Positions 32,665 to 64,000 of a DNA stretch of 64,000 bases are shown here, one piece after another. Source of the DNA: Phycisphaerales bacterium. Lineage in GTDB: Bacteria > Planctomycetota > Phycisphaerae > Phycisphaerales > UBA1924. Under the pieces are notes generated by a model. It saw only the letters and a list, made by a program, of their open reading frames with translations. It was not told the origin of the DNA and made no database searches. Every line of letters begins with the position of its first letter. Within the stretch, counting starts at the first letter, position 1. The position numbers and the translations under genes are program-made. The stretch is from positions 1-64,000 of the forward strand of contig JAFIFZ010000023.1 of NCBI GenBank assembly GCA_020831775.1. The letters run 5' to 3'.

Positions 32665-33384
32665 TCAGCGGCGGCGGCGGACCGCGGCCAGCCCGGCAAA
32701 GCCGAGCAGAGCGGCCGTGCCCGGCGCGGGCACAGCGTCAACAAACACTGAGACGCCGAAAGTGTCGGCCGCGACCGAGCCCAGCGCGAACGCCGAGACG
32801 TTCGTGTTGGCGATCAGCTCAAGGCCCGGGATGTCCTGAAGCACGGCGTTCGAAACCGCGTCGACGACCCGGATGTCGTAGAAGCCCGGGGCGAGCTCGA
32901 AGTAGCCGGTGACATCCTCGAACTCAACATCGGTGAGGAAGCTCGAGCCGTTGACGAGGATGTTCACCGCGCCCGCGTCGGGCACGAAGTGGCCGAGCCG
33001 CAGCTGCGCGACCGAGGGGTTGGTCGTGCGATTGTCGACCAGGATCACGGGGCGAACATTGGCGAGGAAGTCGATCGCGACCACGCTCACCGGGATGTTC
33101 GCGTCGATCGAGGCGAACGCGTCGATGGCGACAAGCGACGGATCGGCCTCCGGCGTCACCTTGAAGGTGTAGTCGCCGCTGGGCACCGCCAGGTACCCGC
33201 TGTCCTCGCGAAACGAGAGCGACGGGATCACCGGCGAACCGCTGACCGGATTGCCCACGGTGTTGCCGCCATCGACAAACACGCTGACGGCGGGCGTATC
33301 CGGCGAACCGTGGATCACGCGGACATTCGCGGACGCCCCTCCCGCGAGGGCGAGCACGCAACCAACTGCAATGTACTTCTGCAT
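32665..33384 (-). CDS. Exported DUF4397 protein with PEP-CTERM-like sorting tail
   Basis: A 239-residue secreted protein. It has a signal peptide (MQKYIAVGCVLALAGGASA), then two DUF4397-like units opening VRVIHGSPDTPAVSVFVDGG and AQLRLGHFVPDAGAVNILVNG, and finally a PEP-CTERM-like end: PAPG, a hydrophobic stretch (TAALLGFAGLAAV) and RRRR. That tail targets proteins to exosortase in other bacteria; here the motif is PAP rather than PEP. The start at 33384 has an AAGGAG site; an ATG two codons upstream is possible. Function outside sorting is unknown. Confidence 0.85.
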   Translation of the reverse strand: MQKYIAVGCVLALAGGASANVRVIHGSPDTPAVSVFVDGGNTVGNPVSGSPVIPSLSFREDSGYLAVPSGDYTFKVTPEADPSLVAIDAFASIDANIPVSVVAIDFLANVRPVILVDNRTTNPSVAQLRLGHFVPDAGAVNILVNGSSFLTDVEFEDVTGYFELAPGFYDIRVVDAVSNAVLQDIPGLELIANTNVSAFALGSVAADTFGVSVFVDAVPAPGTAALLGFAGLAAVRRRR

Positions 33385-38218: not shown

Positions 38219-38890
38219 TCAGGCCCGGCGACGACGGACCGCCACCAGCCCGAGCCCGGCCAGGCCGAGTCCCGCCGCGCCGGGGAGGGGGATGACCACC
38301 ACTTCGCCGACAAAGCGGACGGGCGAGAATTCACCACCTTCGAAGAACTCGGCGATCCGAAGCGTGCCGCCGGCAGCGATGCCGGTGTTGCCGTCGGCGC
38401 GGGTGTCAGACAGAGCGACGATCCGGAACTCCACCTCGCCGGTCAGGCCCGCCAGGCCGCTCAGATCGATCTCGCTGTTCAGGAACGCGGTCCCGCTCTG
38501 CGTGAAGGTGAACAGGTTGTTGGAGAATCCGTCGCCGCTGAAGAACAGACCGAGATCGCCCGGTCCAGTGTTCGACGCACGAGTCGCGATGAACAGGCTC
38601 GACAGATTGACGACCGCGTTCTCGGCGACCGTGAATCCGAACGAGAAATAGTCCTCCGAGGCGTTGAGCGTGTTCCAGCCGCTTGAGCTGAACGAGTTGG
38701 CAGCACTTGTCGCGTTCAGCCCCGTACCACGGGTCATGTTCAGACCTGTGACACCCGTCGCCGACTCCGAAGGCGCAGTAAAGGCCTGATTGCCCGGCTC
38801 GCCGAACAAGTCGTACGCGGTGATGATCGTCGACGCGCCTGAGGCCGAGGTCAGCGACGCGAGGCCGACCGCTGCTGCACTGATATGCAT
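38219..38890 (-). CDS. Exported PEP-CTERM-like protein, tandem copy A
   Basis: A 223-residue secreted protein: signal peptide (MHISAAAVGLASLTSASGAS), a beta-rich domain, and a sorting tail of PLPG, a hydrophobic stretch (AAGLGLAGLGLVAV) and RRRRA. It is clearly paralogous to the next gene; both have ATRASNTGPG-LGLF-SGD-FS, TQSG--FLNS-IDLS and the GGTLRI--FF segment. The start at 38890 has an AAGGAG site; the longer frame upstream is not supported. The fold resembles choice-of-anchor domains of exported proteins. The biological role is unknown. Confidence 0.84.
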   Translation of the reverse strand: MHISAAAVGLASLTSASGASTIITAYDLFGEPGNQAFTAPSESATGVTGLNMTRGTGLNATSAANSFSSSGWNTLNASEDYFSFGFTVAENAVVNLSSLFIATRASNTGPGDLGLFFSGDGFSNNLFTFTQSGTAFLNSEIDLSGLAGLTGEVEFRIVALSDTRADGNTGIAAGGTLRIAEFFEGGEFSPVRFVGEVVVIPLPGAAGLGLAGLGLVAVRRRRA

Positions 38891-39076: not shown

Positions 39077-39730
39077 TCAGGCGCGGCGGCGACGACCCGC
39101 GACCAGGCCGGCCAGGCCGAGCAGGGCGGCCGAGGCCGGCGCGGGGACGACCTCGCCCGTGAACTGCACCGGGAAGAAGTCGCTGCCGTCGAAGAACTCG
39201 CTGATGCGGAGCGTGCCGCCCGAGGCGATGCCCATGTTCCCGTCGGCACGCAGATCGGAGATCGGGCTGATCCGGAACTCCACCGAGCCGTCAAGGTTGG
39301 TCAGGGCGCTCAGATCGATCGTGCTGTTGAGGAAGCTGGTGCCGCTCTGGGTGAAGGTGTGGAGGTTGGTGCTGAAGTTGTCGCCGCTGTAGAACAGGCC
39401 GAGCTCGCCCGGGCCGGTGTTCGAGGCGCGGGTCGCGATGATCAGCTCGTTGAGGTTGACCACGAAGCCCGCGTCAACGCTGAAGCCGAACGAGAAGTAC
39501 GAGTTGCTGTCGGGCGTCCAGCCGTTGGCGCTGATCGAGTTGCCCGCGGCGGTCGGGTTCAGGTTCGCGCTGCGGGTCATGTCCAGACCCGCCACATTCG
39601 CGGCCGAGGTGGTCGCGGGGGTCGACACCTGGTTGCCCGGCTCCTGGAAGAGCGTGTAACTGGTGATGACGGTGGCATTTGCGGCGCCGGCGAATGCGGC
39701 GGCCGCGACGATTGCTGCGATCTTGTTCAT
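39077..39730 (-). CDS. Exported PEP-CTERM-like protein, tandem copy B
   Basis: A 217-residue paralogue of the gene at 38219-38890. Signal peptide MNKIAAIVAAAAFAGAANAT, a domain with ITSYTLFQEPGNQVS where copy A has ITAYDLFGEPGNQAF, then VPAPASAALLGLAGLVAGRRRRA as sorting tail. The PAP motif and Arg cluster are the same as in the DUF4397 protein at 32665, so one sorting system probably handles all three. The ATG at 39730 has an AGGAG site. No exosortase gene is in the window. Confidence 0.84.
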   Translation of the reverse strand: MNKIAAIVAAAAFAGAANATVITSYTLFQEPGNQVSTPATTSAANVAGLDMTRSANLNPTAAGNSISANGWTPDSNSYFSFGFSVDAGFVVNLNELIIATRASNTGPGELGLFYSGDNFSTNLHTFTQSGTSFLNSTIDLSALTNLDGSVEFRISPISDLRADGNMGIASGGTLRISEFFDGSDFFPVQFTGEVVPAPASAALLGLAGLVAGRRRRA

Positions 39731-59774: not shown

Positions 59775-60509
59775 TCAGCAGCCGATCGCAAACGCGTTGA
59801 GGAACTCGAAGAAGTCGTCGGCATCGATCACGCCGTCGTTGTTGAAGTCGGCTCGCATATCGCCATCTGCGAAGAGCTGGAGGAAGAGGAAGAAGTCGTC
59901 GGCGTCGACCACGCCGTCGCCGTTGAGGTCGGGCGGGCAGGCCGTGCCCGAGCTGACCATGACGCGCAGAGCACTCATGTTGCTGTTTGGAAAGAGCGTC
60001 CAGGTTCCGGGCCCGCCACGCCAAGCCCAGCGGTCATTGGTGTGACCGAACGAGTTCCGCAGCCAGGCGCCCCAACTATTGGAGCCGGGCATGATGCCCA
60101 TCCAGTAGACGACACCCTGCTCGAGTTGGACCGATCCGTCCGCCGTGATACTCAGCGGAAGGTCCGCGATGTTCGGAGAGTTCGGCGCATCCCATTCGGC
60201 CAAGAGCGTGCCGGGCTCGCCGAAACTGTCTTCGTAGATCTGGAACCAGAAGAGATCGTCGCTGCCGCGATGGATCAGCGGGAAGGTGATCTCGGTGATC
60301 CCGCCGCTCGCCTCAGGAACGATGCGGAAGAAAGGTCCCCACGGCTGGCCTGCGTCCGGCCCCATGACAACCATGCCGAGCGACTCGAACTCGTTGCCCG
60401 GCCCCATGTTGTCAAAGGCGGTCTCGATTGCGTGAGCGCCGGACGCGAGCACTGCGATTGAAATCGCGATGGTCGACGCCGTTGCCCCGCGTCTTCGTAA
60501 CTGTGCCAT
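59775..60509 (-). CDS. Exported protein with dockerin-like C-terminal EF-hand pair (paralogue 1)
   Basis: A 244-residue secreted protein. After a signal peptide (ending near SGAHA), a beta-rich domain of about 160 residues resembles choice-of-anchor domains (FWFQIYEDSFGEPGTLLAEWD, VYWMGIMPGSNSW). The C-terminal 55 residues carry two EF-hand-like loops, DLNGDGVVDADDFFLFLQLF and DFNNDGVIDADDFFEFLNAF, preceded by a CPP and ending in Gly-Cys. It is the most diverged N-terminal member of the paralogues, yet shares almost identical 3' DNA. A GGAG site precedes the ATG. It follows the next gene by only 34 bases and is likely cotranscribed with it. Confidence 0.82.
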   Translation of the reverse strand: MAQLRRRGATASTIAISIAVLASGAHAIETAFDNMGPGNEFESLGMVVMGPDAGQPWGPFFRIVPEASGGITEITFPLIHRGSDDLFWFQIYEDSFGEPGTLLAEWDAPNSPNIADLPLSITADGSVQLEQGVVYWMGIMPGSNSWGAWLRNSFGHTNDRWAWRGGPGTWTLFPNSNMSALRVMVSSGTACPPDLNGDGVVDADDFFLFLQLFADGDMRADFNNDGVIDADDFFEFLNAFAIGC

Positions 60510-60543
60510 GGTCTACTCCGATCGGTGAGCGGTTGAAGCGACT

Positions 60544-61266
60544 TCAGCAGCCCGCAGCAAATGCGTTGAGGAACTCGAAGAAGTCGTCGGCATCGATCAC
60601 GCCGTCGTTGTTGAAGTCGGCCCGGAGGTCGCCCGCGGCGAAGAGCTGCAGGAAGAGGAAGAAATCGTCAGCGTCGACCACGCCGTCGCCGTTGAGGTCC
60701 GGCGGGCAGGTCGGGCCGGCTGCGTCGACCATGATGCGCAGGCCACTCATGTTGCTGTTCGCAAAGAGGGTCCAGGTACCAGGACCTCGCCAGGCCCAGC
60801 GGTTCTTGGTCTCGCCGAACGAGTTGCGCCGCCAGGTACCGTTGCTGTCCATCGCGGGCATGATGCCGATCCAGTAGGTCGTGCCCTGGTCGAGGCTCGT
60901 CGAACCATCGAACTGGAAGGTGCTGAGGCCGTTGGCCGGATCACCGGAGACCTCGTGCTCGCCGACGAGCGCACCGATCTGCCCGAAGTCGTCCTGGTAG
61001 ACCTGGAACCAGAACTGGTTGTTCTGATTGCTGTGGGCCAGGGGGAACGAGACCTCGACGATGCCGCCGCTCGCCTCGGCGGTGATGTCGAAGAACGCGG
61101 CCCACGGAACTCCGACATCGGGCCCGCGGACGAGCATGCCCGTCCCCGGCTCAAACGCGTTGCCAGAGCCGAGGTTGTCGTACGCCGTCGATTGCGCTGA
61201 AGCACCGGATGCGGCGATCAAGCCAGCGCACACAGACACACCAAACAGCTTTGCTCTGTTCACCAC
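60544..61266 (-). CDS. Exported protein with dockerin-like C-terminal EF-hand pair (paralogue 2)
   Basis: Close paralogue of the genes at 61437 and 62323. It starts at GTG codons (61266 or 61263) after AAAGGAG, aligned with the starts of those genes; the frame open to 61365 is not used. Signal peptide ends SGASAQ. The domain AYDNLGSGNAFEPGTGMLVRGPDVG to WRGPGTWTLFANSNMSGLRIM is followed by CPPDLNGDGVVDADDFFLFL and DFNNDGVIDADDFFEFLNAF, ending AAGC. It has its own conserved promoter (61350-61378). Its role is unknown; surface display or matrix is likely. Confidence 0.82.
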   Translation of the reverse strand: MVNRAKLFGVSVCAGLIAASGASAQSTAYDNLGSGNAFEPGTGMLVRGPDVGVPWAAFFDITAEASGGIVEVSFPLAHSNQNNQFWFQVYQDDFGQIGALVGEHEVSGDPANGLSTFQFDGSTSLDQGTTYWIGIMPAMDSNGTWRRNSFGETKNRWAWRGPGTWTLFANSNMSGLRIMVDAAGPTCPPDLNGDGVVDADDFFLFLQLFAAGDLRADFNNDGVIDADDFFEFLNAFAAGC

Positions 61267-61349
61267 AAGAATCTCCTTTTCACTACCCAAACGCTCCGCC
61301 ACTCCGACGGCGGCCCACGGTGACGAGACCCATCGCCTCATCTGCGGCG

Positions 61350-61378
61350 AACTTAACAGAACCACTCCGCCGCGTCAA
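61350..61378 (-). promoter_or_regulatory. Conserved promoter of dockerin-like paralogue 2
   Basis: On the minus strand TTGACG (61373-61378), 17 bases, TAAGTT (61350-61355). The same hexamers at the same spacing occur upstream of paralogues 3 and 4. Confidence 0.65.
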
Positions 61379-61436
61379 CAGTTTCCGCGCAGGATGCCAT
61401 TTTCAGGCGGCATCCAAACTCTTTTCCTCCCGACAT

Positions 61437-62156
61437 TCAGCAGCCGATTGCGAACGCGTTGAGGAACTCGAAGAAGTCGTCGGCATCGATCACGCCGTCG
61501 TTGTTGAAGTCGGCTCGCATATCGCCATCTGCGAAGAGCTGGAGGAAGAGGAAGAAGTCGTCGGCGGCGACGACGCCGTCGCCGTTGAGGTCAGGCGGGC
61601 AGGCCGGGACAGTGGCACCGACCATGACACGGAGCGCGCTCACTTGGCTGTTAGAGAACAGGGTCCATGTGTCGGGGCCGCGCCAGGCCCAACGGTTCTT
61701 GGTCTCGCCGAAGTTGTTCCGGCGCCAGGTACCGTGGCTGTTCATGGCCGGCAAGACACCGATCCAGTAGACCGTGCCCTGCTCGAGGTTGATTGTGCCG
61801 TCGAGCTGGAAGGTGCTGAGACCGTTGTCCGGATCGCCGGTGACCTCGTGCTCGCCGACCAGCGCACCGATCTGCCCGAAATCGTCCTCGTAGACCTGGA
61901 ACCAATACTGGTTGTTGTGGTTGTTGTGGTGCAGCGGGAACGAGACCTCGACGATGCCGCCGCTCGCCTCAGCGGTGATGTCGAAGAACGCGGCCCACGG
62001 AACACCGACATCGGGCCCGCGAACGAGCATGCCCGCCATGGCGTCGAACTCATTGCCCGGGCCCATGTTGTCGTAGGCGGTCGTCTGCGCCGAAGCACCT
62101 GACGCGGCGACCAACCCTGCACACACAGACAGACCCAACAGCTTTGTTCTGTTCAT
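61437..62156 (-). CDS. Exported protein with dockerin-like C-terminal EF-hand pair (paralogue 3)
   Basis: A 239-residue secreted paralogue starting at ATG 62156 (or the GTG just before it, 62159) after AAAGGAG. Signal peptide MNRTKLLGLSVCAGLVAASGASA. The main domain (TTAYDNMGPGNEF to TWTLFSNSQVSALRVMV) is very close to paralogues 2 and 4. The dockerin-like tail reads DLNGDGVVAADDFFLFLQLF, in which Ala replaces Asp in the first loop, and then DFNNDGVIDADDFFEFLNAF, ending AIGC. The first loop may therefore bind calcium less well. Transcribed from its own conserved promoter. Confidence 0.82.
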   Translation of the reverse strand: MNRTKLLGLSVCAGLVAASGASAQTTAYDNMGPGNEFDAMAGMLVRGPDVGVPWAAFFDITAEASGGIVEVSFPLHHNNHNNQYWFQVYEDDFGQIGALVGEHEVTGDPDNGLSTFQLDGTINLEQGTVYWIGVLPAMNSHGTWRRNNFGETKNRWAWRGPDTWTLFSNSQVSALRVMVGATVPACPPDLNGDGVVAADDFFLFLQLFADGDMRADFNNDGVIDADDFFEFLNAFAIGC

Positions 62157-62243
62157 CACGACGCTCTCCTTTGAATATCGAAACTCTCCGCCACTCCGAC
62201 AGCGGACCCACGGTGACGAGACCCGGCACCCCGTCCAATACGG

Positions 62244-62272
62244 AACTTAACAGAACCTCATCTGCGCGTCAA
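62244..62272 (-). promoter_or_regulatory. Conserved promoter of dockerin-like paralogue 3
   Basis: TTGACG (62267-62272), 17 bases, TAAGTT (62244-62249), minus strand. The leader between it and the start is also conserved among the paralogues. Confidence 0.65.
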
Positions 62273-62322
62273 GAAGTTATCCGGCGGAGATTCCGGCTCC
62301 GAACAGAATTCGGCCAGTCCAT

Positions 62323-63051
62323 TCAGCACCCTTGCGCAAACGCGTTGAGGAACTCGAAGAAGTCGTCCGCGTCGATCACGCCGTCGTTGTTGAAGTCGGC
62401 TCGCAGGTCGCCATCGGCGAACAGCTGCAGGAAGAGAAAGAAGTCGTCGGCGTCGACCACGCCATCGCCGTTGAGGTCGGGCGGGCAGGTCGGGCCGGCG
62501 GCGTCGACCATGATGCGCAGCCCGGCCATGCCGGTGCTGGAAAAGAAGCTCCAAGTATCCGGCCCGCGCCAGGCCCAGCGGCTCCTGGTCTCGCCGAAGT
62601 TGTTCCAGTGCCAGGTGCCGTGGCTGGCCGGCCCCGGCATGATGCCGATCCAGTAGGTCGTGCCCTGTTCGAGGTTGATCGAGCCGTCGAACTGGAAGGT
62701 GCTGACACCGATGTTCGGATCGGCAAAGACCTCGTGCTCGCCGACCAGCGGGCCGATCTGGCCGAAATCGTCCTGGTAGACCTGGAACCAGAAGAGATTG
62801 TTCTGGTTGTTGAGAAGCAGCGGAAACGAAACTTCAACAATGCCGCCGCTCGCCTCGACGGGGATGCCGAAGAACGCCGCCCAGGGCGAGAGCGTCGATG
62901 CGTCCGGTCCACGAGTAACCATGCCATGCGTGGCGTCGAACTCATTGCCCGGGCCGAGGTTGTCGTACGCCGTCAACTGCGCCGAAGCGCCGGACGCGGC
63001 GACCAACCCAGCGCACGCAGACACACCAAACAGCTTTGTTCTGTTCACCAC
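62323..63051 (-). CDS. Exported protein with dockerin-like C-terminal EF-hand pair (paralogue 4)
   Basis: A 242-residue secreted paralogue starting at GTG codons (63051 or 63048) after AAAGGAG. Signal peptide NRTKLFGVSACAGLVAASGASA. The domain (TAYDNLGPGNEFDATHGMV to SFFSSTGMAGLRIMV) has a four-residue insert (DASTLSP) compared with the siblings. Both EF-hand-like loops are complete, and the protein ends AQGC. The Cys before the tail (GPTCPPDLNG) and the final Cys could form a disulfide, as in the other paralogues. Confidence 0.82.
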   Translation of the reverse strand: MVNRTKLFGVSACAGLVAASGASAQLTAYDNLGPGNEFDATHGMVTRGPDASTLSPWAAFFGIPVEASGGIVEVSFPLLLNNQNNLFWFQVYQDDFGQIGPLVGEHEVFADPNIGVSTFQFDGSINLEQGTTYWIGIMPGPASHGTWHWNNFGETRSRWAWRGPDTWSFFSSTGMAGLRIMVDAAGPTCPPDLNGDGVVDADDFFLFLQLFADGDLRADFNNDGVIDADDFFEFLNAFAQGC

Positions 63052-63132
63052 GAGGTTCTCCTTTGAGCACCGAAACTCTCAGCCGCAACGACGGCGGACC
63101 CACGGAACCAGACCCGACGCGCGACCGAACGG

Positions 63133-63161
63133 AACTTAACAGAACATCATCAGCGCGTCAA
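63133..63161 (-). promoter_or_regulatory. Conserved promoter of dockerin-like paralogue 4
   Basis: TTGACG (63156-63161), 17 bases, TAAGTT (63133-63138), minus strand, as for paralogues 2 and 3. Confidence 0.65.
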
Positions 63162-63220
63162 GAAGTTACCGGGCGGGCCCGCCGGAGACCCCGATCCCCG
63201 AACCGGACCCTGTCCGCCTG

Positions 63221-64000
63221 TTAGCAGCCCTGAGCGAAGGCGGCGAGGAACGCGAAGAAGTCGTCGGCGTCGATCACGCCGTCGCCGTTGAAGTCCGCCC
63301 TCGGGTCGCCGTTGGCAAAGCCCGTCAGGAAGCCGAAGAAGTCGTCGGCGTCGACCACGCCGTCGCCGTTCCAGTCCGCCGGGCAGGGGGCCGAAGCCTC
63401 GCAGACGAACTCGCGGATCAGGAACGCGTCCAGCGCGGCTTCGACGATCGAGGGTGAGCCGAAATCTGAGGCAACGAAACGCAGTTGCACGCTGTTCGTC
63501 GGCTCGCCGAGTTCCGCCACCGACCAGTCGGCAAAGAACCAGCCGCCCTGGCTGCCCGGGCCCGACGGGCCGAGGGTCTCGGCGTTCGTCCATGTCTGCC
63601 CGGCGTCGAAGGAGATGTCGATCTCGAAGACATCGTCGGAGGGGAAGCCCCGGTTGTTGCTGTACCAGCGCCAGTAGGAGATCTCGGCGCCCTCGTGTTC
63701 AGCGAGGTCGAAGACCGGCGAGAAGAGCGTCGTCGCGCCCCCGCTGACGGCGTGCGTGCCGGTGAAGAGCCCCGACCGACCGTCGGTCACCCAGACCTTC
63801 TCACCGACGATCGGTGTGCCGGGCTGAGCAGGCGTGGGCTCTGAAACCATCCGCGTCCAGACGCCGGATGTCGCGGTGTCGCCGGGCGCACCGACGGTCC
63901 ACCCTCTGTCGGTGTCGAAGTCGTCGTAGAAGATCTCGACCCACTCGCCGATGTCTGCGCTGAGCGGGTCGGCCGCGCCGCCTGCGGGGTAGGTGGTCAC
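63221..64000 (-). CDS. Large exported protein with dockerin-like tail, C-terminal part (partial)
   Basis: The frame is open to the window edge; the visible 259 residues are the C-terminal end of a longer protein. A beta-sandwich domain (IGEWVEIFYDDFDTDRGWTV, VFDLAEHEGAEISYWRWYSN, VFEIDISFDAGQTWTNAETL) is followed by CPADWNGDGVVDADDFFGFL and DFNGDGVIDADDFFAFLAAF, ending QGC. The segment TTYPAGGAADPLSADIGE at the edge is typical of the region just after the catalytic domain of secreted metallopeptidases in these bacteria, but the catalytic part is outside the window. The dockerin-like tail is shared with the four paralogues downstream. Confidence 0.8.
   Translation of the reverse strand: MTTYPAGGAADPLSADIGEWVEIFYDDFDTDRGWTVGAPGDTATSGVWTRMVSEPTPAQPGTPIVGEKVWVTDGRSGLFTGTHAVSGGATTLFSPVFDLAEHEGAEISYWRWYSNNRGFPSDDVFEIDISFDAGQTWTNAETLGPSGPGSQGGWFFADWSVAELGEPTNSVQLRFVASDFGSPSIVEAALDAFLIREFVCEASAPCPADWNGDGVVDADDFFGFLTGFANGDPRADFNGDGVIDADDFFAFLAAFAQGC

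Follow-up and report, generated by a model that had tools for sequence, protein, structure and literature searches.

A GC-type dockerin tail with a probable disulfide clasp on exported proteins of a Phycisphaerales bacterium

Five genes with one C-terminal module

We analysed the first 64,000 nucleotides of contig JAFIFZ010000023.1 of a Phycisphaerales bacterium (assembly GCA_020831775.1). This stretch, the window (C39:1-64000 of a 3.55-Mb, 84-contig assembly), contains five minus-strand open reading frames (ORFs) between 59775 and 64000 that share one 54-residue C-terminal module, which we read as a putative docking tag of the dockerin type. The module occurs in 5/5 of these frames, which stop at 59775, 60544, 61437, 62323 and 63221; it begins with Cys and Pro or Ala and ends in Gly-Cys, and its layout is Cys-Pro, two D-x-N-x-D-G-x-x-[D/A]-x-x-D loops, DDFF-x-FL and the terminal Gly-Cys, with a hydrophobic helix absent from all five tails. 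An earlier note on this DNA had described five consecutive exported proteins with just this tail and without a hydrophobic helix, a description that we confirmed.

All five window proteins match the full length of the NCBIfam model NF041540, “GC-type dockerin”, at 59–66 bits (curated cut-off 29 bits), and the same model finds nothing in 14 control genomes (0/14). Pfam returned sub-threshold EF-hand and Dockerin_1 matches on the tails, with one EF-hand match just at the cut-off. The domain in all five tails is thus the one already catalogued as NF041540, although that family model supplies the name only: in the literature searched, we found no mechanism, receptor, disulfide or distribution described for a GC-type dockerin, nor a paper using the term. 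What is new here is the probable clasp, the predicted recognition face and the near-absence of cohesins.

Four of the five proteins are tandem paralogues with a common N-terminal domain and approximately 50–75% identity to ORF 4, meaning that just two cargo types carry the tail within the window; four of the five also match choice-of-anchor R below its cut-off. ORF 1 (59775..60509, minus strand, as are all the following) encodes an exported, beta-rich protein of 244 residues with such a sub-threshold match, and its 54-residue tail (59778..59939) scores 64.4 bits in a genome-wide NF041540 scan, from which the tail scores below are also taken. ORF 2 (60544..61266; tail 60547..60708, 69.4 bits) is a paralogue of ORFs 1, 3 and 4, with its start set by homology at GTG 61266 in an open frame that reaches further upstream. 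In ORF 3 (61437..62159; tail 61440..61601, 62.5 bits), also a paralogue, Ala replaces a loop ligand at the D9 position of the first loop (VVAADD). The remaining paralogue, ORF 4 (62323..63051; tail 62326..62487), is modelled as a beta-rich N-terminal domain followed by a loop-helix tail; the full-length model is of moderate confidence (predicted local distance difference test, pLDDT, 74.9), and a Foldseek search with the cargo domain returned scattered beta-rich proteins at low template modelling (TM) scores. ORF 5 (63221..64000; tail 63224..63385, 68.6 bits) is the C-terminal part of a 1027-residue S8 subtilase, which is cut by the window edge, continues to approximately contig position 66304 and also has a PPC domain match below threshold. 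The tail cluster extends past the window, with further copies at contig positions 66466 and 67901. A similar leader (TTGACGCG...TTCTGTTAAGTT, minus strand) lies upstream of tandem paralogues, at about 62235-62275, at about 63125-63165 and upstream of 61300, and has the look of a promoter that was copied.

When solved dockerins were searched with a profile of diverse tails, the matches spanned both repeats, the best being 2y3n_B (E 4e-10). Modelled alone with AlphaFold, the ORF 4 tail (pLDDT 91.9, predicted TM score 0.78) forms two loop-helix units, with helices at 19-30 and 46-58. The best Foldseek match of this model is again 2y3n_B, with a probability of 0.99 and an E value of 0.12 that is not significant for so short a chain. 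VIA-align also ranks 2y3n_B first (Z 5.6, root-mean-square deviation 2.4, 57 aligned residues), and seven of its eight rows with Z >= 2 are dockerins, at Z 2.8–5.6, although these are few chains and modest Z values. Taken together, the sequence match and the predicted fold match identify the tail as a dockerin by both homology and modelled fold. Calmodulin-type EF-hands, characterised by helix-loop-helix pairs and Glu at loop position 12, are a different case: position 12 is Asp in 94/94 canonical tails, and the model is without an entering helix.

Like cellulosomal type I/II dockerins (Bacteroides cellulosolvens DocCel48, PDB 2y3n), the tail has two calcium-loop/helix repeats with Asp as the twelfth ligand, internal two-fold symmetry and specificity positions 10 and 11. 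It differs from them in the shorter spacing of its repeats, with 27 residues between loop starts, in the Cys pair that replaces an aromatic/proline clasp, and in its setting, with no cellulases among the listed cargo families and no recognised cohesin in this genome.

The cysteine pair and a predicted recognition face

The core of the tail differs by genus (DDFFxFL here, xFDFLAFQ in genus g2, NGDFxAFF in genus g6 and xxDLxxLLxxW elsewhere), while Cys-x-x-D...G-Cys is kept. In modules outside the window's own genus and outside the FDF-type tails, cysteines before loop 1 and after helix 3 occur together in 22 cases, the N-side one alone in 1, the C-side one alone in 7 and neither in 68 (Fisher p 7e-15, from rows that are not phylogenetically independent); both are present in 26/26 FDF-type tails of genus g2. 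Linker cysteines number two in 12 modules, one in 3 and none in 89, in rows that are likewise not independent. Given the co-occurrence of the terminal cysteines across the order and the pairing of those in the linker, it is probable that a disulfide between the first and the last Cys holds the two ends of the dockerin together. In known dockerins, the ends are clasped by aromatic/proline stacking (Slutzki 2013, cited in PMC5934362 and PMC4728124); the tying together of the N- and C-terminal ends is common to both cases, by stacking there and by a probable disulfide here. The literature searched contained no description of a disulfide-clasped bacterial dockerin.

Four modules (L195, L222, L226 and L238) have two linker cysteines at the pseudo-symmetric position and lack the terminal pair; by the two-fold symmetry of dockerins, the linker site may be the equivalent of the terminal one. 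In two single-Cys cases (L128 and L157), the first Cys appears, as read by eye, to lie further upstream. Copies with inserted calcium loops (e.g. DLTGSATPGDPGYGVPDG) in one or both repeats retain the Cys pair and the core motif (L354, L355, L356 and L357; in the window's own genome C15_9206, C28_77979 and C49_14438). The last Cys is not obligatorily the last encoded residue, as it would be in a covalent attachment tag: it ends 82/93 parsed copies of the own genome, where some other tails have residues after it, it is followed by one residue in 18/27 tails of genus g2, and the pair is also found in a non-terminal module (L126).

In each repeat of a dockerin, specificity is determined by positions 10 and 11, and dual binding rests on the sequence symmetry of the repeats (PMC8063739); in a Ruminococcus dockerin, recognition is dominated by positions equivalent, in our own renumbering, to 10 and 14 (PMC5429695). 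In the window's genome, Ala-Asp occupies positions 10-11 of the first loop in 95/95 tails and of the second in 90/95, and the same pair predominates in related metagenome-assembled genomes (MAGs). Comparing one tail per genus from 24 genera (one half of the G318 tail was mis-parsed, which is conservative), repeats within one tail agree at positions 10, 11 and 14 at a rate of 0.74, against 0.15 between genera, more than in any of 10,000 permutations (p about 1e-4). By position, and with the G318 parse corrected, the excess is 0.73 at 14, 0.61 at 10, 0.56 at 21 and 0.51 at 11, and is small or absent at 15, 19 and 22. These statistics show a predicted face that is symmetric and genus-specific, and concerted change at 10, 11, 14 and 21 is what would be expected of a symmetric face matched to a lineage-specific receptor. 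There is no sign of recent internal conversion, since the same codon is used at a rate of 0.731 between the halves of one tail and 0.717 between different tails.

Copies, cargo and coexistence with PEP-CTERM

The genome-wide scan with NF041540 found 122 places, or 118 GC-type copies once four weak dockerin-like ones were set aside; some of these copies are fragments at contig ends, and runs of up to seven occur. Several contigs end within or beside tail sequence (C20, C27, C36, C64, C65 and C72; loci L046, L050, L059, L081, L082 and L089), suggesting that repeated tail DNA broke the assembly. The canonical 54-residue tails of this genome, a set chosen so that both Cys are conserved, have mean identities of 81.5% in amino acids and 80.5% in nucleotides. 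At conserved residues, fourfold third positions agree at a rate of 0.57 compared to 0.44 expected from codon usage, indicating mainly constraint on the protein, together with a degree of shared ancestry or homogenisation.

A signal-peptide-like start was found in 102 of 110 complete frames, within the first 60 residues in 78 compared to 4.9 in shuffles, using a simple heuristic that was negative for EF-G, adenylate kinase and fumarase; some of the frames that it missed look exported by eye. Signal-peptide prediction thus shows the tail-bearing proteins to be predicted exports. The cargo is varied, with 111 usable regions falling into 54 blastp groups. Among 101 scanned proteins, all of which match NF041540 (101/101), it includes S8, M14, M64 and trypsin-like proteases, beta-propellers, beta-helices and choice-of-anchor R, Q and D domains. 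The idea of a constant tail on different domains is accordingly limited within the window to two cargo types, and holds in the genome, with at least 54 cargo sequence groups. In genome G372, an open frame of 11,837 residues contains several dockerin matches (L166, G372:C53).

The window also encodes three PEP-CTERM-like C-termini of the VPAPxxxALLG...RRRR type on the minus strand (32668-32736, 38225-38293 and 39083-39148), which score below the Pfam cut-off yet are typical in form, bearing out the earlier view that some tails share a genome region with such proteins. The genome has two exosortases and seven PEP-CTERM matches above the cut-off, with 12 weaker ones, and so contains two C-terminal tag systems side by side. 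Both place a C-terminal tag on many exported proteins; however, the GC tail is a predicted folded calcium module, and it has none of the features of PEP-CTERM (PF07589), namely a PEP-like motif, a hydrophobic helix and a basic C-terminus, which supports the distinction from PEP-CTERM drawn in the earlier note. In some genomes of family f3, a dockerin without the Cys pair directly precedes PEP-CTERM (L202, L207, L217, L245 and L176). Exosortase was rejected as an explanation of the module's distribution, being present in 91/91 genomes of the order. The type IX secretion system translocon protein SprA was found in 0/91 of these genomes, with the control genomes silent too.

Docking and its alternatives

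We favour, with a probability of roughly 0.6, a docking reading: the tail would be a calcium-dependent tag, clasped by a disulfide, that presents a symmetric, genus-specific face to a receptor which is no recognised cohesin. Once exported by a Sec-type route, the module would fold in the oxidising, calcium-containing exterior into two calcium-loop/helix repeats, its ends clasped by a disulfide from the Cys of Cys-Pro to the Cys of Gly-Cys. Cargo would then be tethered without covalent bonds to a common receptor, or to a few of them, which would read positions 10, 11, 14 and 21 of either repeat through a face interchangeable by 180 degrees (dual-binding), as in classical dockerins. Such a receptor would be lineage-specific and beyond Pfam cohesin recognition, either a non-cohesin or highly diverged, and the tag would work beside the exosortase/PEP-CTERM system. 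Of the second, calcium-dependent surface attachment or secretion system envisaged in the earlier note, the part that stands is a predicted calcium-dependent docking module on exported proteins; a sorting signal at Gly-Cys is not supported. The note took its idea to fail if the tail proved to be an already known dockerin whose cohesin had been described in this lineage; only half of this applies, since the dockerin subfamily is known but has no described cohesin, nor does the genome contain a recognisable one.

Across the phylum (292 genomes), the module is found chiefly in the window's order, and in the window's family it occurs in 61/61 genomes (60 genera), 59 of them above the cut-off, with up to approximately 200 tails per genome in the family sample. 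Dockerin_1 is present in 86/91 genomes of the order, and in a single-tail scan the closest named relatives were Phycisphaerales MAGs, such as PLM2.Bin57 and CSSed162cmB_608R1.

Several observations weigh against the docking reading. The Pfam cohesin model (PF00963) gave 0 matches at E <= 1 in the window's genome and exceeds its cut-off in just 5/61 family genomes, which would also fit a module that no longer docks; the receptor itself was not found and binding is putative, the receptor and the tethering being what we infer from the tail. Some own-genome copies have the C-terminal Cys only (C64_2253, C37_3914 and C81_119130) or the N-side Cys only (C47_84147), and some one-Cys exceptions are conserved in relatives (L311, L315 and L326). 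The concerted repeats could also stem from an old internal duplication or conversion in the ancestor of each genus.

The strongest alternative, which we hold to be possible but less probable than not, is that the tails belong to a conventional cohesin-dockerin pairing, with a cohesin that has diverged beyond the reach of PF00963 or is encoded in sequence missing from the assembly; this alternative overlaps with the favoured reading, docking being common to both and the receptor differing. Fold, symmetry and specificity positions do match classical dockerins, and a cohesin/dockerin “planctosome” has been proposed in freshwater planctomycetes, Nemodlikiaceae (PMC6461901), sharing with the present case non-cellulosomal dockerins in planctomycetes and peptidases among the cargo. 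In the planctosome, however, cohesins sit on large anchoring and adaptor proteins, whereas here there are approximately 118 dockerins and no recognised cohesin. Cohesin-like domains do occur sporadically in the family, on few proteins: in three genomes (G301, G323 and G393), the proteins that carry them are large and also have a dockerin-like segment towards the C-terminal part of the frame, an arrangement similar to the “adaptor” of PMC6461901. Several cohesin-like repeats with Pro/Thr linkers were seen on a 3.6-kb contig (L347, G299), which may be contamination of the bin. A weak cohesin-like match in G220 (22.7 bits) was rejected as a general diverged receptor, its domain occurring in 4/41 family genomes and being absent from the window's own. 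Gaps in the assembly are no explanation, because cohesin is absent in most of the 61 genomes, many of them near complete. A recognisable cohesin or scaffoldin in the same genome, by which a cellulosome-type system is defined, is absent from the window's own genome.

We regard it as unlikely that the tail merely caps the C-terminus of exported proteins, as a folded piece stabilised by calcium and a disulfide that guards them against unfolding and proteolysis and has no specific receptor. The scarcity of cohesins would suit such a cap, as would the calcium ligands and the Cys pair being the most conserved features across genera, but pure stability needs no residues at 10, 11, 14 and 21 that are near-constant within a genome, variable between genera and concerted in both repeats, and several of the domains in the cargo (choice-of-anchor R/Q/D) take their name from alternating surface anchors. 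Finally, it is very improbable that Gly-Cys, nearly invariant and usually terminal as it is, serves a transpeptidase or lipid-attachment enzyme as a C-terminal sorting or covalent attachment signal, sorting having been one option of the note, since the last Cys probably pairs with the upstream Cys with which it co-occurs across lineages, is often followed by a further residue and occurs in a non-terminal module, and the tail lacks the hydrophobic helix and basic end seen in PEP-CTERM proteins of the same genome.

Returning to the docking reading, a lineage-specific surface receptor for the tail probably awaits discovery. Its extension to the whole family, as surface docking by disulfide-clasped dockerins on a lineage-specific non-cohesin receptor in parallel to exosortase sorting, is a tentative and rather doubtful proposal. 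A disulfide-clasped, genus-orthogonal dockerin would also serve well as a stable tag in protein assembly.

Most knowledge of dockerins has come by way of their cohesins. The present planctomycete family deploys dockerins in the hundreds on surface proteins and proteases without a recognised cohesin, making what they bind a direct and testable question: any receptor would have to face a symmetric, genus-variable patch formed by the residues listed above.

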